Source: a bacterium (GTDB lineage Bacteria > Gemmatimonadota > Gemmatimonadetes > Gemmatimonadales > JACORV01). From it: a stretch of 35,632 bases of DNA. The stretch is from assembly GCA_021787855.1 (NCBI GenBank), contig JAJYLI010000005.1, positions 1 to 35,632 of the forward strand. The letters are read 5' to 3'. Every line of letters starts with the position of its first letter. The stretch's first letter is position 1. The position numbers and the translations under genes were made by a program. Under the pieces are notes generated by a model, which saw only the letters and a list, made by a program, of their open reading frames with translations, made no database searches and had not been told where the DNA came from. Positions 2,002-14,197 of the stretch are shown here, piece by piece.

Positions 2002-2808
2002 CTACAGGGCGCGGATTCGCACCGCGCCGTTCACCGTTGCGATCTTGAGCGGCCGGCCGCCCCGGCCGATGGTGCCCTTCAGGTGGTGCCGGCCGAGCCG
2101 CCCGGTCACGGTGACCGGGAAGTCGGTCTCGATGCTGCCGTTGACCGTCGCCGCGTCGAGGTCCGCGTCGAGGTCCCTGGGCAGCGATACGGTCACGCCG
2201 CCGTTCACGGTTTCGAACGACAGCGGGTTGCTCCCGCCGCCCCGCACGGTGGCCGTGACGCTGCCGTTGACGCTGTGGCCCCGCGCCTCCCCGGCCGAAG
2301 TCTCCACCCGGACGGCGCCGTTGACGGTGCCGACGTCCACCGGGCCCGCCAGGCCGGCCGCCGCCACGGCGCCGTTCACGTTCCGCGCCGTGAACGCGAC
2401 GCCGGCGGGCACCTGGGCGTGAAACCGCACCTGGACATCGTTGTTGCGCGTGTTCATCCGGTAGTCGTCGCCGGAGGCGCAGCGGTTGGAGCTCCCCGGA
2501 TAGACGGCGCAGATCGTCACGTTCCCCGCGGTCTGCACGACCTCGAGCTTCACCTCCGCCGGGTCGCTGTGGTCGGCGGTCTTGGTGGCCGTGACGACCA
2601 CCTCGGAGCCGCTCGCGGGCTCCGCGTCAATCGAGCCGTTGATCCCGCGGATCTCCAAGGTCTTGCCCGCCGCCACGGCACCGTGCCAGGTCCACTCGTT
2701 GCCCTGCCGAGCCTCGGGGGTGGCGGACCGCCGACCGCCGGGCTGCGCGGCCGCGATCGCGGCGGCACACGCCGCGGCGGCCGCCGTGCCTGCCAACAGG
2801 TGCTTCAC
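2002..2808 (-). CDS. Exported DUF4097-like beta-repeat protein (VNGAV/VNGSI repeats)
   Basis: Signal peptide MKHLLAGTAAAAACAAAIAAA; seven NG-turn repeats (INGSI, VNGAV, VNGAV, VNGSV, VNGGV, VNGSI, VNGAV). Confidence 0.75.
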   Translation of the reverse strand: MKHLLAGTAAAAACAAAIAAAQPGGRRSATPEARQGNEWTWHGAVAAGKTLEIRGINGSIDAEPASGSEVVVTATKTADHSDPAEVKLEVVQTAGNVTICAVYPGSSNRCASGDDYRMNTRNNDVQVRFHAQVPAGVAFTARNVNGAVAAAGLAGPVDVGTVNGAVRVETSAGEARGHSVNGSVTATVRGGGSNPLSFETVNGGVTVSLPRDLDADLDAATVNGSIETDFPVTVTGRLGRHHLKGTIGRGGRPLKIATVNGAVRIRAL

Positions 2809-3716
2809 CGGTCACCTCCGGTTGGCGCCGCGGCGCCGCCACGGCGCAGGTAGATCGTGCCACTGAAGGACTCCAGACGCAGGCGGGCGCCGCCCGAACC
2901 GATCGTGAACTCCCACTCCCGCGGTCCCACCGGCCCGCCGCCGGGGTTGATGGTCATCGGCCAATCCGACTCGACGTCGCCGCTGAACGTGCTCACCGAC
3001 ACCAGGGCGTTGAGCGCGCCCTCGGGCCGGACGGTGACGTCCCCCGAGTGCGACCGGAAGGCGTAGCGCCCGCCGTCGTGGATGGGGCCGGAAAAGCCGA
3101 TGTCGCCGTTCACGGTCTCGGCGCGGACGTCGCGTCCGTCCACGCGCGCCAGCGTGATGTCGCCGGAGACGCTCTGCGCGCCGACGTCCCCGCGCACGTC
3201 GCCCACGTCCACGTTGCCGCTGGTCGAGCCGATGTCGAGATGCCCGCCCTGGCCGCGCACGTCGGAGACGGTGACGTCCCCGGAGATGCTGCGGACCTGC
3301 ACGTCACCCGCGCCGCAGCGCAACGACACGTCTCCGGAGATCGAAGTGAGATTGGCTTCGCCGCACACGCCACTCACGGTCACGTCGGCCGAGATGCCGT
3401 GCGCTTCCAGCGGCGTGCCGGCCGGCACCGACACCGTGTAGTCCACGTCGCCCTCGTTCTCCCGCGGCGTGGTGCGCACCACCACGTAGGAGGGGGAGGC
3501 GTCCACATCCACGCGGGCGCCCTCGGTCTGCGCGACGATGCGGATCTGCGGGCGGTCCCAGGCCTGGATCCGGATCGAGCCGGACACGTCGTGCAGCTCG
3601 AACCGGGCGCCGCTCCGCACGGCGACGGTGGTGTCGAGGGACTGGGCGGCCACCGCCCGCGGGGCGGCGGTGAGCGCGGTGGCGGCGAGCGCGACGCTGA
3701 CGATGCTGGGTCTCAT
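2805..3716 (-). CDS. Exported DUF4097-like beta-repeat protein (SGDV repeats)
   Basis: Signal peptide MRPSIVSVALAATALTAAPRAVAAQ; repeated ISGDV/VSGDI rungs. 4-nt overlap with downstream paralogue. Confidence 0.78.
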   Translation of the reverse strand: MRPSIVSVALAATALTAAPRAVAAQSLDTTVAVRSGARFELHDVSGSIRIQAWDRPQIRIVAQTEGARVDVDASPSYVVVRTTPRENEGDVDYTVSVPAGTPLEAHGISADVTVSGVCGEANLTSISGDVSLRCGAGDVQVRSISGDVTVSDVRGQGGHLDIGSTSGNVDVGDVRGDVGAQSVSGDITLARVDGRDVRAETVNGDIGFSGPIHDGGRYAFRSHSGDVTVRPEGALNALVSVSTFSGDVESDWPMTINPGGGPVGPREWEFTIGSGGARLRLESFSGTIYLRRGGAAAPTGGDR

Positions 3717-3723
3717 GGGCTCC

Positions 3724-4404
3724 TCAGCTGGCCGCCACCATGGCGGTGACGCGGCGCAGCAGCTCGAGCTTGCGGTCGAGCGCGTTCTCCAGGTGGTCGT
3801 TCAGGTACAGGCTGTTCGGGTCCTGGGCCAGCGCGGCCTCGGCCTGGCGGATGGCGGCGTCAATCACGGCCAGGCTCTGCTTCACCGCGCGGACCGTCGC
3901 GGTGTCGAGTCGCGGGCTCCCGGCCGCGAGGGCGGTCTCCAGGTCGGCGATCGCCGCGTCGTACGACTCGATCCCCTTGGCCGACGCCGAGGAGGCGAGC
4001 CGGGGCGTCAGGGCCGCCGGGGGACGCGTGAAGCGCAGCGCCGTGACGGCCGAGCGGGGCGGGGGCGCGGTACGGGTGAGCAGCACCGCGCCACCCGCCG
4101 AGATCGCCGCGAGCACGATGGCGGCTGCCGCGAGCTGCGGGAGGGAGAAGCTGAAGCGCCGGCGCGCCGGCCGCGGCGGAAGCGCCACGGCGCCGCCCAG
4201 CCGGGCGGCGATCCCCGGCCACAGGTCGCGCCCGGGCGCGCGGTCGCCGAGCGCGCCGGCCTCGCGCTTCAGCGTGAGCAGCGCGTCGTAGGCGGCGCGG
4301 CATTCGGCGCAGGCCGTGAGGTGCCGCTCGGCCGCCTCCAGCTCCTCGCGCGGAAGCTCGCCGTCCACCAGCGCGCTGAGCCGCTCCCCGAGGTGCGCGT
4401 CCAT
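3724..4404 (-). CDS. Anti-sigma factor with N-terminal zinc-finger (ZAS) domain and one TM helix
   Basis: MDAHLGERLSALVDGELPREELEAAERHLTACAECRAAY (Hx3Cx2C), TM LPQLAAAAIVLAAISAGGAVLL; directly downstream of ECF sigma gene. Confidence 0.85.
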   Translation of the reverse strand: MDAHLGERLSALVDGELPREELEAAERHLTACAECRAAYDALLTLKREAGALGDRAPGRDLWPGIAARLGGAVALPPRPARRRFSFSLPQLAAAAIVLAAISAGGAVLLTRTAPPPRSAVTALRFTRPPAALTPRLASSASAKGIESYDAAIADLETALAAGSPRLDTATVRAVKQSLAVIDAAIRQAEAALAQDPNSLYLNDHLENALDRKLELLRRVTAMVAAS

Positions 4405-4406
4405 GG

Positions 4407-5003
4407 TCACGGCTCCAGGTGCGCGCGGAGCAGCATCCGCGCCCGGTGCAGCTGGGCCTTCGACGTCCCCGGTGTGACTCCCAGCATCTCGGCGATCTCC
4501 CCGTGCTTGAAGCCTTCCACGTCGTGCAGCACGAACACCTGCCGCGCCCCGACGGGCAGCCGGCCGATGGCCTGTTCCAGATCCAGCGCCGCGCCCTCCG
4601 GCGCCCGCGGAGCCCCGATCAGCTCGGCGTCAGCCCCGGGCTCGATCCGCCGCCGCCGTCCCGCCTCGTCCCGCCGCCAGTTCAGCAGCACGTTCACCGC
4701 CAGGCGGTACAGCCAGGTGCCGAACGCCGCCTCGCCGCGATACGTCGCGAGGCGCTGCCAGGCTCGCACGAACACGTCCTGCGTCAGCTCGTCGGGGTCG
4801 CCTTCCGCCCCGGCGAGGCGGCACGCCAGCGTGTGCACGCGCGCCACGTGTCGGCGGTACAGCCGCTCGAAGGCCCGCTGGTCCCCCGCGGCCGCCAGCG
4901 CGACATCCGCCCCCTCCGACAGGTCGGGAGGCGAGGCGGCGCCCCTACCGGGAACCGGCGGGCGGCTCACGCGTCGGCCCAGGCGGCGTAACGCCCCGTC
5001 CAT
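4407..5003 (-). CDS. RNA polymerase sigma factor, ECF (sigma-70) family
   Basis: Region 2: GDQRAFERLYRRHVARVHTLACRL..DPDELTQDVFVRAWQRL..FGTWLYRLAVNVLLNWRR; region 4: LPVGARQVFVLHDVEGFKHGEIAEMLGVTPGTSKAQLHRARMLLR. Confidence 0.95.
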   Translation of the reverse strand: MDGALRRLGRRVSRPPVPGRGAASPPDLSEGADVALAAAGDQRAFERLYRRHVARVHTLACRLAGAEGDPDELTQDVFVRAWQRLATYRGEAAFGTWLYRLAVNVLLNWRRDEAGRRRRIEPGADAELIGAPRAPEGAALDLEQAIGRLPVGARQVFVLHDVEGFKHGEIAEMLGVTPGTSKAQLHRARMLLRAHLEP

Positions 5004-5047: not shown

Positions 5048-6412
<1,365 letters not shown>

Positions 6413-6522
6413 CGCGTCCCCAGGCAGCGTAGGAGGTTGCATCAGCAAGTGTGGCGAACAACGACAGCGCGGGCAAGAGGTCCCACGGGCATCGGGGCCT
6501 CAAGTTGGTCGCGCGACGGGGC

Positions 6523-7164
6523 TTAGCTCGTCAGCGCGGCGAGCGCCGCGAAAGACTCGACATAGAAGTCGGGCCCCTGCGGAGCGAGGTCCGTCCGCTG
6601 AAAGGGGCCCCAGAGGCAGGCGGCGGTCCGGGTGCCGGCGTCGCGGCCGGCGGCGATGTCGTGTGGGGAGTCGCCCGCGAACAGCGCCTCAGCGGGGGCG
6701 GCGGCGAGTCGCTCGAGCGCGGCACGGACGGGCGCGGGGTCCGGCTTGCTGGCCGCGAGGTCGTCGGAAGTGATGATGGTCTCGAACAGGCCGTCGAAGC
6801 CGCACAGAGCGAGGCCGCGCTCGACGCCCCCGCGATTCTTCGAGGTGACGATGCCCAGCCGGGCGCCGCGGGCCCTGAGGTCGCGCACCGTCTCGACCGC
6901 GCCGGGGAAGGCGCGGACCATGGCGTCATGGTGGTCCAGGTTCCACTCGCGGTAGGTGGCGATCATCCGGTCCAGCTCCGCGGGATCGTCGGTGAAGCGG
7001 CGGAATTGAACCCTGAGCGGGGTTCCCAGGCCCGCGAGCCACTCGGAGTCGGGGAACGTGCGGCCCCGATGGACGCGCATGGTGTGGTGATAGGAATCGA
7101 GGATCAGGCGCGTGGAATCAATCAGAGTGCCGTCGAGATCGAACAGCACGGCGCGGAATTTCAT
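6523..7164 (-). CDS. HAD-superfamily hydrolase, phosphoglycolate phosphatase/PpaX-like
   Basis: MKFRAVLFDLDGTLIDST, GIVTSKNR, FAGDSPHDIAAGRDAGTRTAACLWG. Confidence 0.92.
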   Translation of the reverse strand: MKFRAVLFDLDGTLIDSTRLILDSYHHTMRVHRGRTFPDSEWLAGLGTPLRVQFRRFTDDPAELDRMIATYREWNLDHHDAMVRAFPGAVETVRDLRARGARLGIVTSKNRGGVERGLALCGFDGLFETIITSDDLAASKPDPAPVRAALERLAAAPAEALFAGDSPHDIAAGRDAGTRTAACLWGPFQRTDLAPQGPDFYVESFAALAALTS

Positions 7165-7251
7165 CGGGAAGAAGATAGTGGGCAGCGGCACGGAACGCAG
7201 AAGAGGTGCCGGACTTCAAGGCGGCAGTGGCTGCCGGTTGCGGGCCGCGAC

Positions 7252-9759
7252 CTATCGAGTCACGGATCGGGACGCGAGCGCGATGGCCGCCACCAGCACC
7301 AACCTGGGCGTCCCGTCGAGGGCCGGGCCTCGGGGCGGCAGCGCGGGCGCGATCTGTTCCTGGACTTGGGTGGCCAGCGCGCGGCCGCTCGCTCCGCTCT
7401 GGAGCAGGCGCCCCAGGCGCCGCTCCAGCCCGGCCGGCAGGTCGTGGCGCAGGGCCTCGAGGGCCGCGGCGATGGCGGCCACGGCGGCGGCGTCCCGTGC
7501 CCGGCCTGCCCGGAGGGCCGCCAGGCTCAAACGGGTGAGCGCGGTGCGCCGGTTGGGGCCCGGCGCGTTGCCGCCGCGCCGGGCCGCCGAGAGCGCGAGC
7601 AGGCGGGCGCGGGCGAGCGGCAGCACGGAGGCCAGCGCCGCGGAGAAGTCGGGGGGCGCGCAGGGCAGCGGCGTCGCCCGGAGCGCGCGGGCGGCCAGGG
7701 TGCCCAAAGCCACGGGGTCGGCGCGGATGTCGCCGCCCCCGCTCATGACGTACGCCAGCGGGATGCGCGCGCCGGTCGGCCATTCGAGCGCCAGCAGCAG
7801 TCCGACGGCGGGGGCGCCGTCCTCGGCCAGGCCCGCGGCCACCACCGGCCGGCGGGCCGGGGTCGCGGGCGGCGGTCCGGCGATGGTGCGCCAGCGCTCG
7901 CCGGCCTCGAACGGCTCGATCCGTCGCCAGCTCTCGGTCTCGAGGGCGGCGGGCGTAGGGAGACCCGCGGCGGTCCACCACAGCGCGGCCAGCGGATCCG
8001 GTTCGGCGCCCGGCCCGCCGGAGTTGCGGGCGAGCTTGGCGCGCAGGGTCTCGAGGACGCCGGTGAGCTCCCGCAGCCCGCCGGCGGGCACGAGATGGGC
8101 CACGACCACGTCCCGGCTCAACGCGCCCAGCCGGTCCACGCGGCCGATGCGCTGCATCACCCGCACGGGGTTCCAGGGCAGGTCGTAGTTCACCACGGCC
8201 GAGGCGTCCTGGAGGTTCATGCCCTCGCTGGCCACGTCGGTGGCGATCAGCACTCGCGCCTCCAGGAGCGGATCGGACCGGGCGGCGCGGGAGACGGGGG
8301 CGAACGCGTCGAGCGCGCGGCGCCGGCTCAGGCGTTCCGGCCCGGCCCACGCGTCCCTGCCGGTGACGGCCAGCACGCGGAAGCGCCGGCGCAGCGATCG
8401 CGCCAGATCCAGCGCGGTGTCGCGGTACTCGGTGAAGACGATGGTACGGCGACCGGCCAGCTCGCCGGCCAGCAGCGCCTCGAGGGCCGCGCGCTTGGGG
8501 TCGTCGCCCTCGGTCGGCGCCGCGGCGATCCGCAGGGCGTCGTCGAGGGCCGCGCGGCGCGCGGTGAGGTCCTCGGGCACGGCGGCGCCGGCCTCCCCCA
8601 GCAGCAGCTCCAGCAGGGAGAGCTGTGTCTCGTCGCCGTCGTGTCGCGGAAACAGCGCGGTGAAGTCGCGGCGGGTGAGCCGGCGGCCGGAGGCCGCGGC
8701 GTCGCTCCAGGCGAGCAGGAATTCGTGATGGCGCCGCAGGCTGCGCACCAGCGCCGCGCGGCTGGACTCGAGCCGCCGGAGCAGGGCCAGGTGGAACAGC
8801 GCCGCGCCGCCGGCCAGGTCGGGTGCGCTGGCGGCCAGTTGCCCGAGCGCCCGGAGCAGCGGATCGAGGCGGCCGGCGTACACCCGGAGCAGATCGTAAG
8901 CGACCGGGGCGGCGAGCCGGCGATGCGGGAACGCGGTGTCGAGGTCGGGGAACCGCTCGCGCACCAGCCGCCGGCTGCGGCACACGGAGATGGCGGAGAG
9001 GGCGAGCCCCGCGCCGGCCGGGCCACCGGCTCCGTGGAGGGCCTCGCGAAGGTCGGCCACGCCCAGCTCGCGGAACCGGTCGCGGCCGCAGAACAGCTGC
9101 AGCAGGGCGGCCAGGTCCGCGGGCGAGTTGTTGAACGGCGTGGCCGTCAGCAACACGACCCGGCGGCCGGCGGCGAGATCGGCGAGGGCGGCGTAGCGCC
9201 GCGTCGCCGCGTTGCGGAACGCGTGCGCCTCGTCCACCAGCAACAGGGAAATGCCGGGTGGCAGGGCGGGCGTGGATCGCGCGAGGCGGGTGTGCGTGTA
9301 CAGCGGCAGGCGCAGGCCCACCGCCCGGCACTCCCGCTGCCACTCGAGCTTGAGCGCCGCCGGCACGATCGCGGCGGCGCCGCCGCCCCCGGCCCGTTCC
9401 AGCAGGGCCAGGGCCAGCGCCACGAGCGTCTTGCCCACCCCGACGCCGTCGGCGAGCAGCACCCCGCCGAAGCGGTGCAGGATGGCACGGCAGCGCCGCG
9501 CCGCGTCGGCCTGGTGGGGCAGCAGCCAGGCCGGCAGCGCTTCGCCCGGGTCCGCGAGCTCCAGCGGCTCCAGGAGCCCGTGCAGCGTCGCGCGGGCGGC
9601 CACGGCCGGCGGCGTGGCGTCCGCGAGCGTCAGCGCCGGGAAGAGCGGATCAGCGATCCCGGCCAGCGTCTCGGCGCAGAGTGTCGCCCAGGTAGCGCAG
9701 CTCGGCGGCGGCTTCCGGGGCGAGACCGAGCGCGCGAGCGGCGCACGCATCGAGATCAT
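7252..9759 (-). CDS. SNF2/RapA-type DEAD/DEAH helicase, putative defence-associated (exact start uncertain)
   Basis: LLADGVGVGKTLVALAL (Walker A), LLVDEAHAFRN (Walker B), LLTATPFNNSPADL, VLIATDVASEGMNLQDASAVVNYDLPWNPVRVMQRIGRVDRLG. Adjacent to methylase. Confidence 0.9.
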   Translation of the reverse strand: MISMRAPLARSVSPRKPPPSCATWATLCAETLAGIADPLFPALTLADATPPAVAARATLHGLLEPLELADPGEALPAWLLPHQADAARRCRAILHRFGGVLLADGVGVGKTLVALALALLERAGGGGAAAIVPAALKLEWQRECRAVGLRLPLYTHTRLARSTPALPPGISLLLVDEAHAFRNAATRRYAALADLAAGRRVVLLTATPFNNSPADLAALLQLFCGRDRFRELGVADLREALHGAGGPAGAGLALSAISVCRSRRLVRERFPDLDTAFPHRRLAAPVAYDLLRVYAGRLDPLLRALGQLAASAPDLAGGAALFHLALLRRLESSRAALVRSLRRHHEFLLAWSDAAASGRRLTRRDFTALFPRHDGDETQLSLLELLLGEAGAAVPEDLTARRAALDDALRIAAAPTEGDDPKRAALEALLAGELAGRRTIVFTEYRDTALDLARSLRRRFRVLAVTGRDAWAGPERLSRRRALDAFAPVSRAARSDPLLEARVLIATDVASEGMNLQDASAVVNYDLPWNPVRVMQRIGRVDRLGALSRDVVVAHLVPAGGLRELTGVLETLRAKLARNSGGPGAEPDPLAALWWTAAGLPTPAALETESWRRIEPFEAGERWRTIAGPPPATPARRPVVAAGLAEDGAPAVGLLLALEWPTGARIPLAYVMSGGGDIRADPVALGTLAARALRATPLPCAPPDFSAALASVLPLARARLLALSAARRGGNAPGPNRRTALTRLSLAALRAGRARDAAAVAAIAAALEALRHDLPAGLERRLGRLLQSGASGRALATQVQEQIAPALPPRGPALDGTPRLVLVAAIALASRSVTR

Positions 9760-12733
9760 CGGGATCCCACTGGCCCCCGTTGCTCGCCTCGGCGGCGATG
9801 GCCGCGAGGGAACGGACGGCGGGCGTGGCGCGGTGCTCGGGCAGAGGCAGCGCCGCGATGGTGGAGGCGCCGAAGCGGAACGCGCCGCCGCTGGCGCGCT
9901 CGGCCAGCGCGGCGGCGAGGTTCCGGGCGGGGGCGCTGTTGAGCAGGGCCGCGAGCCAGCAGGCGGTGAACTCGTCCGGGACCGCCACGCCGTAGCAGGT
10001 GTTGAGGGGGACGGGCGCCTGCGGGCCGTCGCGGATCAAGACGGCCGCCTCGAGCCGCGGGGCGATGTCGCGCCACACCACCAGGTGGCGGCTCTTCAGG
10101 AGCTCGGTCCTGAACAGCGCCCACGGCGGCAGGCCCCGGGCGTCGGCGCGGCGCGCCAAGAGCGCCGCGTGGGGCCGCAGGTACGCCGTGACGTCGGCCG
10201 GGGGCCGTGCCAGGGGAGCGCCGTCCTCGGCCACCGCCGCCAGCAGCCACGCGCCGGGCCTGAGCGCGAACGGACCGACATCGCGGCCGAGCACGGCCGG
10301 GCGGCGGCACGAGGCCGGCAGTTCACCTCCCGCCGGCCCGTCGCGCAGGAAGATCGCGTTCGCGCCGGTCTTGACGCCCAGCGTGGGCCGGAAGGCCGTG
10401 CCGAGCCTGGGCCCGGCCCGCAGCACCCGGCGGACGACCCGCACCACGTCTCCGGGCAGGGCCAGCCACGGGGCCCGGGACGGGACCTCGTCCAGCCCGA
10501 GGTCGCGCTGGGCCGCCACGCCGACGACGTGCCGGCCCGAGGCGCCGGCGAGGCTCACCTGCGCGCTCGCGCCGGAGTCCGGCGCGCCCTTCACCAGCAC
10601 CAGGATCAGGGGAAAGACCGTGGCGCCGAAGCCGGTGGCGGCGTCGTGGGCGTGGTCCGCCAGCGCGGTCACGGTCGCGGTACGGCGCAGCAGGGCGCGC
10701 AGGGGACCGGCGTAGCCCGCCCGCAGCAGCTTGCTCGGGACCAGGAAGCCCACGACCCCGCCCGGCCTGGTGAGCTCCAGCGCGCGCTCGACGAACGCCA
10801 CCGCGAGATCGGGCAGGTGGGCGAAGCCGCGCCGCTCCGCCGCCGCGGCGAAGGCGCCGTAGCGGCGCGCCAGGGCGATCCGCGTCGTCAGCGGCAGGCG
10901 CTCGCCGCGCACCCAGGGGGGGTTGCCGAGGACCACGTCGAATCCGCCGTCCGCCAGGACGGGCGCGAAGTGCACCTCGTAGGCGAAGAACGGCAGGGCC
11001 TCCTCCGTGGTGATGCGGCGGCGGGCGGCGACCAGCTCCCGCCGCTCCCGGCGCCAGGCGGCCACGCGGCGCGCGGCGCCGGGCGTGCGGCGCGCTCGCG
11101 CGCCGAACAGGTCGCGGCCGGAGGTGGCCGCGGCGTCGGCCAGGCGCGCGGTGAGCGCGGCGATGCCCGCGTCCGCCACCGCCAGGGCGAGCGTGCGCTC
11201 GTCGGCGCGGATCGCGCGGGCGAGCGCGGTCTTGTCGCGCCCGGTGGCGGTGAAGTAGGCGGCGCGGTGCTCAGCCACGGCGCCCAGGGCGGCGACGGCC
11301 GGGCGGGGCAGCTCGTGAGCCGCCTCCAGGGGCGAGAGCAGGCTGTCCCCCTGGCGGAGGTTCTGGTCGAGATTGGGCAGCGGCGCCACTTCGTCGAGGC
11401 GCGCGTCGTCGTCCACCAGCAGCGCCAGCCACAGCCGCAGCTCGGCCAGCCGCACCGCCATGGGGTCCAGATCCACGCCGAACAGGTTGTCGCGCACGAT
11501 GGCGCGCCGGCGCCCGGCCGGGCGCTCCCCCGGCGCGAGCGGGCCGCGCGCCACCTCCAGCCGGGTGAGGGCTTCCAGCAGGAAAGCGCCGGAGCCCACG
11601 GCCGGGTCGAGCACGCGGATCCGGGCGACCTGGGCCGGAGCGCGGTCCCGCAGCGCCGCGCCCAGCGCCCGGTCCACCACTTCGGCCAGCAGCGCGCGGG
11701 GCGTGAAGTAGGTGCCCTGGCGGCGCCGGCGGTCCCGCGCCATCAGCCCCTCGAACACCCGCCCCAGCATCTCGGGGTCCACGGCGTCGGCGTTGGCGCG
11801 CTCGCGCACGGTGAAGTGGAACCGCTCGAACAGCTCGTCGAACAGGGCCCGCCACGTCTCGTCGGGCAGGATCGCCCGCGGGAACCGGCGCTCGATGCCG
11901 TGGCGCTCGAACAGCCCGCCGTTCAGGAAGGGCAGGTCCCCGAGGGCGCGCGCGGCCGGGCCCCGCCGCTCCGGCGGCGCGTTCAGCGCGCCGAAGCACA
12001 GCGGCTCGAACACGCCGCGGTGGAAGGGGTGGCCGCGACGGAGCGCCGTGTCGAGCAGCGACGGCAGGAAGTCGCTGCGGCCGGCGAGCCACCCCCGGCT
12101 CTGGACGAAGTACAGGAACAGCACCCGCGTCAGCAGCACCAGCGCGAGATCGCGCCGCTCCGCCGCGCTCGCGCCCGCCATCCCGGCCAGCGCCTCGGCG
12201 GCCACGCCGTGGAAACGGGAGAACTCCTGGAAGAAGCGGCGGGTGAGCCCTTCCTCCTCCAGCACCCCGGCCGCGCGCAGCGCCAGCGCCAGCGGCGAAT
12301 CGCCCGCCGCCGGCGCGAGCCCCGCCAGGATCTCGGCCGTCACCGGGCTGGGCGGCCGCAGGGCGACGCGCAGCTGGCGCGCCGCCAGCCCGCCGTCGCG
12401 CGGGACGGCCGCCGCCAGGGCGAGCGTCGTCGCCGCGGAATCCAGCACCACCAGCAGGCCGTGCTCACCCGGGGTGGCCCGCGCCAGTCGCGCCGCCGCC
12501 GCCGCCACTTCACCCGGCGTGGGCGATTCCGCCAGCAGGCCGTACAGGCTGTAGGCGCCGTGCCGGCCCACGATGGCGGCGCGCCGCACCCCGAGCCCGC
12601 CGTCGAGTCCGAGCCGGGCGCGCGCCGCCGCGTTGAGCTCGTCCCCGCCGGGGGCGTAGCCCAGCGCGGCGGCCAGCTCGAGCAGATCGTCGAGGGAACG
12701 AAGGCCCGCGAGCAGTTGTGCGGTGACGGCCAT
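9650..12733 (-). CDS. N6-adenine DNA methyltransferase, Eco57I/type IIG-like with C-terminal TaqI-like specificity region
   Basis: VLDPAVGSGAFLLEAL (motif I), VVLGNPPWVRGE (motif IV), VLFLYFVQSRGWL, FLNGGLFE, and C-terminal FRFGASTIAALPLPE. ATG at 12733 (MAVTAQLLAGLRSLDDL). Confidence 0.92.
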   Translation of the reverse strand: MAVTAQLLAGLRSLDDLLELAAALGYAPGGDELNAAARARLGLDGGLGVRRAAIVGRHGAYSLYGLLAESPTPGEVAAAAARLARATPGEHGLLVVLDSAATTLALAAAVPRDGGLAARQLRVALRPPSPVTAEILAGLAPAAGDSPLALALRAAGVLEEEGLTRRFFQEFSRFHGVAAEALAGMAGASAAERRDLALVLLTRVLFLYFVQSRGWLAGRSDFLPSLLDTALRRGHPFHRGVFEPLCFGALNAPPERRGPAARALGDLPFLNGGLFERHGIERRFPRAILPDETWRALFDELFERFHFTVRERANADAVDPEMLGRVFEGLMARDRRRRQGTYFTPRALLAEVVDRALGAALRDRAPAQVARIRVLDPAVGSGAFLLEALTRLEVARGPLAPGERPAGRRRAIVRDNLFGVDLDPMAVRLAELRLWLALLVDDDARLDEVAPLPNLDQNLRQGDSLLSPLEAAHELPRPAVAALGAVAEHRAAYFTATGRDKTALARAIRADERTLALAVADAGIAALTARLADAAATSGRDLFGARARRTPGAARRVAAWRRERRELVAARRRITTEEALPFFAYEVHFAPVLADGGFDVVLGNPPWVRGERLPLTTRIALARRYGAFAAAAERRGFAHLPDLAVAFVERALELTRPGGVVGFLVPSKLLRAGYAGPLRALLRRTATVTALADHAHDAATGFGATVFPLILVLVKGAPDSGASAQVSLAGASGRHVVGVAAQRDLGLDEVPSRAPWLALPGDVVRVVRRVLRAGPRLGTAFRPTLGVKTGANAIFLRDGPAGGELPASCRRPAVLGRDVGPFALRPGAWLLAAVAEDGAPLARPPADVTAYLRPHAALLARRADARGLPPWALFRTELLKSRHLVVWRDIAPRLEAAVLIRDGPQAPVPLNTCYGVAVPDEFTACWLAALLNSAPARNLAAALAERASGGAFRFGASTIAALPLPEHRATPAVRSLAAIAAEASNGGQWDPDDLDACAARALGLAPEAAAELRYLGDTLRRDAGRDR

Positions 12734-12865: not shown

Positions 12866-14197
12866 TCACGCGGCCGCCGCGCCGCGCTCCAGCACGCCGG
12901 TCTCGCGCCGGTCGGCCCGGAGCAGCAGCAGCGCGAAGACGAACCCCAGCACGCCGAGCAGGGCGAACATGACCGCGCTCGCCTGCCAGCCCTCCGTGGC
13001 CACCCGGAGCTTGCCGTTGACCCAGGGGAACAGCGCCAGGCCGGCGTTCTGGATCATCGTCATCACGCCGAAGGCCGTGCCGGTGACGTTCTTCTCCACG
13101 ATCAGCGGCACCGACGGCCAGATGGCCGCGGGCACCAGCACGAACGACGCCCCGAGCAGGATCATCGGCAGGTACGGCGGCACCATCGTGAAACCGAGCA
13201 CCAGGTGCGACGGGATCATCAGCAGGGCTCCCAGCGCCATCAGCGACGCCCGCCGCCCGATCCGGTCCACCAGCCCGCCCGCGAACGGCGCGAAGACCAT
13301 CGAGGCCGCGATGATGATGGAGGTCGTCCCGCCGGCCGTCCCGAACGTGTGGCGCAGGAAGTACCACACCGACTGGAGCGCACCCGAGGCGTGGCCGCTC
13401 GCGACGGTGAGTGGCAGCCCCCACTTCTCGTGGAAGAAGTCCGTCGAGAGCGCCGTGAACGGGAAGATCGCGGAGTAGAACGTGGCGCACAGCACCACCG
13501 CGTACCAGTAGGACCGCCCGAACTTCCTGACGTCCGCGAGCGCGATCTTGTCTCCGGCGCCCGCCTCGGCGAGCCCGAGCGCGGCCTCCCCGTGCCGGTC
13601 CATGCCGAAGTACACCAGGTTGCAGAGCAGGCTGAACAGACACAGGCCGGCCGCCACCCACAGCGCCTCGCCCACGCCGAACCGGCCCGCCACCGACGAG
13701 ATCCCGTTGAAGCTGAACAGGGTCCCCAGCCGCATGATCGTGAGGGTGACGCCGAAGGACAGCGCCAGCTCCCTGCCGCGGAACCACCGCGCCAGAATCG
13801 CGCTCTGCGCCACGATCAGCGACTCCGAGCCCGCGCCGAAGATGAACCGCCCGACGGCGGCCACCCCCACCGTGGGCGCGAGCGCCACGACGCACGCCCC
13901 CACGACCACCAACCCCGAGAGGATCAGACTCGCCAGCCGGGTCCCGATCCGGTCAATCATCAGCCCGGCCGGGACCACGAACAGGATCGGCGCGACGCTG
14001 TACCAGGTGTACAGGCTGCCGACCCCGCTCTGATCGGTGTGCCACGCCTTCATCAGCAGCGGCGCCAGCGCCCCGATGCTGTCGTAGGCGAAATAGCTGC
14101 CGAAGGGCAGCAGCCCCACGAACAGCAGCACCGTGTACCGGTACGCCCCGCGTGATGGATGGAACCAGCCCGCTTCGGCCGCGAACTCCTGGCTCAT
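12866..14197 (-). CDS. MFS transporter
   Basis: About 12 hydrophobic segments; YTVLLFVGLLPFGSYFAYDSIGALAPLL, GLMIDRIGTRLASLILSGL, GGLVDRIGRRASLMALG. Confidence 0.88.
   Translation of the reverse strand: MSQEFAAEAGWFHPSRGAYRYTVLLFVGLLPFGSYFAYDSIGALAPLLMKAWHTDQSGVGSLYTWYSVAPILFVVPAGLMIDRIGTRLASLILSGLVVVGACVVALAPTVGVAAVGRFIFGAGSESLIVAQSAILARWFRGRELALSFGVTLTIMRLGTLFSFNGISSVAGRFGVGEALWVAAGLCLFSLLCNLVYFGMDRHGEAALGLAEAGAGDKIALADVRKFGRSYWYAVVLCATFYSAIFPFTALSTDFFHEKWGLPLTVASGHASGALQSVWYFLRHTFGTAGGTTSIIIAASMVFAPFAGGLVDRIGRRASLMALGALLMIPSHLVLGFTMVPPYLPMILLGASFVLVPAAIWPSVPLIVEKNVTGTAFGVMTMIQNAGLALFPWVNGKLRVATEGWQASAVMFALLGVLGFVFALLLLRADRRETGVLERGAAAA

Follow-up and report, generated by a model that had tools for sequence, protein, structure and literature searches.

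A DNA methylase and SNF2-type translocase gene pair, without a recognisable nuclease, inherited vertically across nearly the whole order Gemmatimonadales

Pairs of a DNA methylase and an SNF2 helicase are known from mobile defence systems and are usually mobile anti-virus genes, and adenine methylases of bacterial core genomes are known one by one. Here, we asked what such a pair is doing on a Gemmatimonadales chromosome when neither of its proteins carries a visible nuclease, and whether it more probably guards the cell or serves the chromosome on which it lies. The DNA analysed (hereafter the window, 35,632 nucleotides) is the entire contig C60 of a genome of 2.82 Mb that is 95.7% complete. 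The pair and its neighbours are arranged as follows:

9650..12733, minus strand: N6-adenine DNA methylase of 1027 aa, in gamma-class order (motif I, then NPPW), with a C-terminal TaqI/CamA-like recognition region
7252..9759, minus strand: SNF2/RapA-type DNA translocase (helicase) of 835 aa, identified by Pfam, conservation and structure matches
9650..9759, minus strand: overlap of the methylase and helicase reading frames (a bicistron), about 110 nt
12866..14197, minus strand: MFS transporter upstream of the pair, not among the recurrent neighbours
6523..7191, minus strand: HAD-family hydrolase directly downstream of the pair, a conserved neighbour
5048..6448, minus strand: NtrC-type sigma-54 response regulator
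2002..5003, minus strand: ECF sigma factor, zf-HC2 (anti-sigma-like) gene and two DUF4097 genes

Both genes are real, as indicated by open reading frames and Pfam matches, which bears out the methylase and SNF2/RapA-type helicase named in a preliminary description of this DNA, as well as the MFS and HAD genes that it placed at the flanks. The methylase starts with an ATG at 12733, with GGGAG upstream, and matches Eco57I (3.9e-21), N6_Mtase (8.7e-11) and, weakly, MmeI domains. The helicase matches Helicase_C (1.2e-17) and SNF2-rel_dom (6.9e-11), and its true start may lie slightly downstream of 9759. The overlap of the two reading frames suggests translational coupling, and overlap or near-abutment of the two genes was seen repeatedly across loci. 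No Pfam, NCBIfam or PADLOC model covers the full length of either protein, and Pfam, PADLOC and curated profile searches matched no nuclease family in the methylase or the helicase, in agreement with the preliminary description, which had seen no nuclease in the pair. The view that the two genes form a unit of their own, with no visible nuclease, is supported. Within the two proteins, the following parts were located:

12359..12733, minus strand: methylase N-terminal alpha/beta domain in the AF2 model, residues 1-125, fast-evolving and without conserved catalytic residues
11819..12295, minus strand: methylase helical spacer, residues about 147-305, weakly MmeI-spacer-like and strongly conserved
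11582..11608, minus strand: methylase motif I DPAVGSGAF, residues 376-384, listed columns 96-100% conserved
10913..10924, minus strand: methylase motif IV NPPW, residues 604-607, 100% conserved
9839..10612, minus strand: methylase target-recognition region, residues about 708-965, vertically inherited, with no swapping seen
9430..9441, minus strand: helicase Walker A GxGK, residues 107-110, with G107, G109 and K110 100% conserved
9223..9234, minus strand: helicase DEAH box, residues 176-179, with D, E and H 100% conserved
8131..8154, minus strand: helicase motif VI QRxGRxxR (arginine finger), residues 536-543, 99% conserved

The motifs on which the preliminary description had relied (DPAVGSGAF, NPPW and the helicase core motifs) are present and essentially invariant across about 115 homologues, a set in which conservation of the active-site motifs of both proteins was far above chance. 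In a gamma-class N6-adenine methylase, motif I precedes NPPY/W and the recognition region is C-terminal, and the protein has this order; the intact Walker A, DExH and arginine-finger motif VI (99-100% conserved) are those of an SNF2 translocase. Sequence and fold searches returned CamA and M.BseCI, followed by BrxX, as the best solved structures for the methylase, whose AF2 model had a mean pLDDT of 78 and a well-predicted recognition region. In the helicase model, both RecA lobes were good and residues 1-71 and 576-732 were poor; the best matches were SNF2 remodellers by fold of the model and RapA by sequence (PDB, helicase profile), with a score of 65 bits against a RapA cut-off of 576.

The preliminary description had raised the question of whether the pair recurs as a two-gene unit, and it does. 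The methylase occurs in 136 of the 151 related genomes, representing 58 of 60 genera, and the helicase lay directly downstream of it on the same strand in 99 of the 101 loci read (100 fetched loci plus the window). The helicase query matched 148/151 related genomes, some of these being generic helicase matches. A survey of the phylum gave a strong methylase match in 84 of 90 in-order genomes that were at least 90% complete; outside the order, strong full-length methylase matches were restricted to family f4, and the matches in other families were mostly weak, generic methylase matches. Many of the genomes are metagenome assemblies. As a control, the N-domain of the type I restriction protein HsdR was patchy in the same genomes (34/151 genomes, 20/60 genera).

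With genus and family codes from assigned taxonomy in place of a species tree, the three families were each monophyletic in the methylase tree, which required 49 genus-label changes for 50 genera, the minimum possible. Separate trees of the N-terminus, spacer, catalytic domain, recognition domain and helicase core were each at the minimum number of genus-label changes, and the tree of the helicase C-terminus was one above it (46 changes for 46 genera). Shuffled labels on the recognition-domain tree gave 84-90 changes. Restriction recognition domains usually recombine; here, all domain trees were at or near the minimum, which indicates vertical inheritance, with no swapping of recognition domains seen. 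Patchy distribution, transfer between lineages and defence neighbours, the marks of a mobile defence cassette, were not found for the pair, and what we observed was the taxon-wide vertical descent without a cognate nuclease that characterises core or orphan adenine methylases. The pair is an old, vertically inherited core chromosomal unit in nearly the whole of this order, whose members live in soil and water.

The surroundings of the pair are also shared within the order. The HAD gene was present within the fetched locus, usually adjoining the pair, in 68 of 101 genomes from three families, and in all three families the ECF sigma/DUF4097 module lay close to the pair in many genomes, in some of them just upstream of the methylase. 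No defence, mobile or BREX genes were seen among the neighbours scanned in the window.

In an order of Acidobacteriota, the pair occupies another core locus that is likewise fixed, and the methylase was found in 18/18 genomes. The helicase is only about 500-600 aa long there, and the pair is flanked by genes for NAD kinase, ClpX, HHH_3, a pilin-like product and a phosphodiesterase to one side and by genes for NtrC, a rhomboid-like product, an ECF sigma factor and Ham1 to the other. In six Acidobacteriota loci (L041, L045, L046, L055, L059 and L077) and in the window, the pair has an NtrC-type sigma-54 regulator downstream of it (about 40% identical), and this arrangement, common to the two phyla, is possibly a trace of an old shared neighbourhood. 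The one close match on a viral contig (L002) is probably host DNA, as it groups within the Acidobacteriota clade and has the same flank as the Acidobacteriota loci.

Both genes are under purifying selection, with dN/dS of 0.11-0.35 in close pairs, and methylase and helicase distances are correlated at 0.92 (partial correlation 0.78 given HAD). Fifteen of the 151 genomes had no methylase, and given that helicase matches there were only weak (best 1.7e-10), both genes were lost together. In G068, compared to G030 of the same genus, the flanking genes are about 170 bp apart at the site of the pair, a clean joint deletion. Losses were repeated inside several genera and were commoner in small genomes (median 2.65 vs 3.6 Mb, p = 1e-4, with relatedness ignored). 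No genome with the helicase and without the methylase occurred among those examined; two genomes, G021 (locus L224) and G063 (L230), kept a methylase with a shortened 3' end and had no helicase, and so represent natural methylase-only derivatives. The pair is dispensable, and the translocase is coupled to the methylase both genetically and evolutionarily. Separately, G056 (L249) carried a decaying copy, a methylase fragment whose match was confined to residues 5-365, and no helicase.

Our preferred explanation, to which we assign a near-even probability of about 0.48, is that the pair is a core, nuclease-less unit of writer and translocase acting on the cell's own chromosome. The methylase would mark the chromosome with N6-methyladenine, and the methylated motif is probably fixed within lineages, given the inherited recognition domain. 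Its SNF2/RapA-type partner would be an ATP-driven translocase on double-stranded DNA, without a recognisable nuclease part, that probably responds to the methylation state of the DNA. Together, they may clear or remodel complexes of protein or RNA polymerase where the DNA is methylated or hemimethylated, during transcription or replication, presumably on the chromosome. This would resemble the part played in gene regulation by CamA and other methylases of core genomes, and that of RapA in polymerase recycling. Conserved core methylases have been discussed previously (PMC8407109). The stronger claim that this is the first order-wide bacterial operon of writer and remodeller, a housekeeping epigenetic machine fixed separately in the Acidobacteriota order, is one that we put forward tentatively, as quite possible but somewhat short of an even chance.

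The strongest competing explanation is a fixed, nuclease-less barrier resembling DISARM or BREX, in which the methylase would mark self and the translocase would load on unmarked incoming DNA and stop its replication or transcription without cutting. Both proteins are remotely similar to the corresponding components, DrmMI/PglX and DrmD, and a distant pair of the same architecture adjoins PD-Lambda-5 and anti-phage 6A-MBL genes. That no genome was seen to have the helicase alone, together with the methylase-only derivatives in G021 and G063, resembles dependence on self-marking, and dispensability with loss in small genomes would also suit a barrier. A fixed defence would likewise be inherited vertically if it were costly to swap. 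Furthermore, the core ATPase of DISARM shows lower activity when the DNA is methylated (PMC9142583), which we count in favour of this explanation. However, order-wide fixation, monophyly of the recognition domain by genus and a core neighbourhood are atypical of defence, including the stand-alone anti-phage system that the preliminary description had considered, and the restriction control was patchy in the same genomes. Moreover, the genome of the window held no match to drmB or drmC: drmB (DUF1998/MZB, PF09369) was unmatched in this genome (G000) in a search that was positive in 8/14 control genomes, and drmC (PLD; one DrmC model, PDLC02587) was unmatched in a search that was positive in 7 controls. 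The preliminary description had named drmA/B/C elsewhere in the genome as a finding that would count against it; its drmB and drmC parts were followed genome-wide and neither gene was found, and none of drmA/B/C was found near the pair. Given the order-wide fixation, the lack of recognition-domain swapping and the core synteny, we modestly favour chromosome housekeeping over a fixed self/non-self DNA barrier, which is possible but the less probable of the two.

It is unlikely that the pair is a true restriction system whose nuclease escaped recognition in the N-terminal domain of the methylase or the C-terminus of the helicase. The methylase is partly covered by its best PADLOC model, that of a type IIG enzyme, and the mixed alpha/beta order of the N-terminus sits where type IIG enzymes carry their nuclease; based on the AF2 model, this domain is possibly a degenerate nuclease-like fold. 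However, conservation within the methylase is lowest in residues 1-150, G25 is the only near-invariant position there, and conservation among about 115 homologues together with the AF2 model revealed no conserved catalytic D/E/K set in this stretch. These observations speak against the effector that the preliminary description had proposed for the methylase N-terminus, and a hidden nuclease in this domain was rejected as a candidate on the same two grounds. A type IIG nuclease motif in the methylase, which the preliminary description would have taken as evidence against its own reading, was absent from about 115 homologues and from family searches. The C-terminus of the helicase (residues 600-835) is poorly conserved and missing from the Acidobacteriota version, which argues against a nuclease at that end, and no nuclease family matched either protein.

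Control of DNA uptake, with the pair marking or processing transforming DNA, is suggested by the conserved HHH_3 (ComEA-like) and pilin-like neighbours in Acidobacteriota, but such genes were absent among the neighbours scanned around the pair of the window, and we consider this explanation very improbable. Least credible is the decaying remnant of class 1 DISARM that the preliminary description had entertained on a methylase-SNF2 gene order resembling drmMI-drmD, a reading already contradicted by distribution and conservation, given that the pair is intact, under purifying selection, vertically inherited and nearly universal in the order, scores far under the DrmD cut-off and has no drmB or drmC match genome-wide.

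That such a pair should be an old unit of the chromosome, inherited clonally in two phyla, is unexpected. If the housekeeping explanation is true, bacteria have a methylation-linked SNF2 remodeller, which is unexpected; if the barrier explanation is true, a nuclease-less defence has become fixed in a whole order, which is also unexpected. In the open-licence papers searched, we found no described methylase-helicase pair of Gemmatimonadota, no Gemmatimonas methylome and no order-wide SNF2-linked methylases.

Among known systems, class 1 DISARM (DrmMI and DrmD with DrmA, DrmB and DrmC) has in common with the pair an adenine methylase and an SNF2 helicase in one operon. In contrast, the helicase of the pair, at 148.8 bits, falls far short of the curated DrmD threshold (610), DrmB and DrmC were not found in the genome, and inheritance is vertical and core; membership in class 1 DISARM was rejected on this score and on the unmatched drmB and drmC. 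PglX/BrxX of BREX is an adenine methylase of similar size, without a nuclease and with a remote fold match, but the methylase scored 54.2 bits against the best BREX model (PglX), whose cut-off is 400.

A longer methylase-SNF2 pair was observed in L050 (L050:5271-20668; 1334 + 1090 aa) and also in L044 and L063. In L050 and L063, it matched PADLOC PDLC03620, a type IIG model, and was C3a139-like, and in L050 PD-Lambda-5 A and B came immediately after it, with an anti-phage 6A-MBL/E1-E2 gene next; similar pairs occurred in contigs of Actinomycetota and Chloroflexota. The L050/L063 pair shares the two-gene layout and a remote homology with the pair studied here, but forms a separate tree branch, has longer proteins and, in L050, anti-phage neighbours. 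As canonical DISARM, L050 was rejected (DrmD 165 bits vs 610; no DrmA/B among the genes scanned), and the pairs of L044, L050 and L063 therefore serve only as a cousin in a defence context. In L256 (family f7) and L257 (f5), of the same class, the helicase precedes the methylase and helicase frames exceed 1100 aa; these are apparently a different methylase-helicase family.

The type IIG enzymes MmeI and BpuSI have the same order of N-terminal domain, helical spacer, methylase and recognition region, but the methylase of the pair lacks conserved nuclease residues and its SNF2 partner is separate. RapA and the SNF2 remodellers resemble the helicase in sequence and fold, and differ in that the helicase described here is encoded with a methylase. 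Finally, CamA of Clostridioides difficile and other core or orphan methylases share the gamma class, the C-terminal recognition region, taxon-wide conservation and the lack of a nuclease. CamA, at about 577 aa, has no N-terminal and spacer part of such size, and its sequence match spans the methylase core and part of the recognition region; compared to CamA, the pair adds an SNF2 translocase and conservation at the level of an order.
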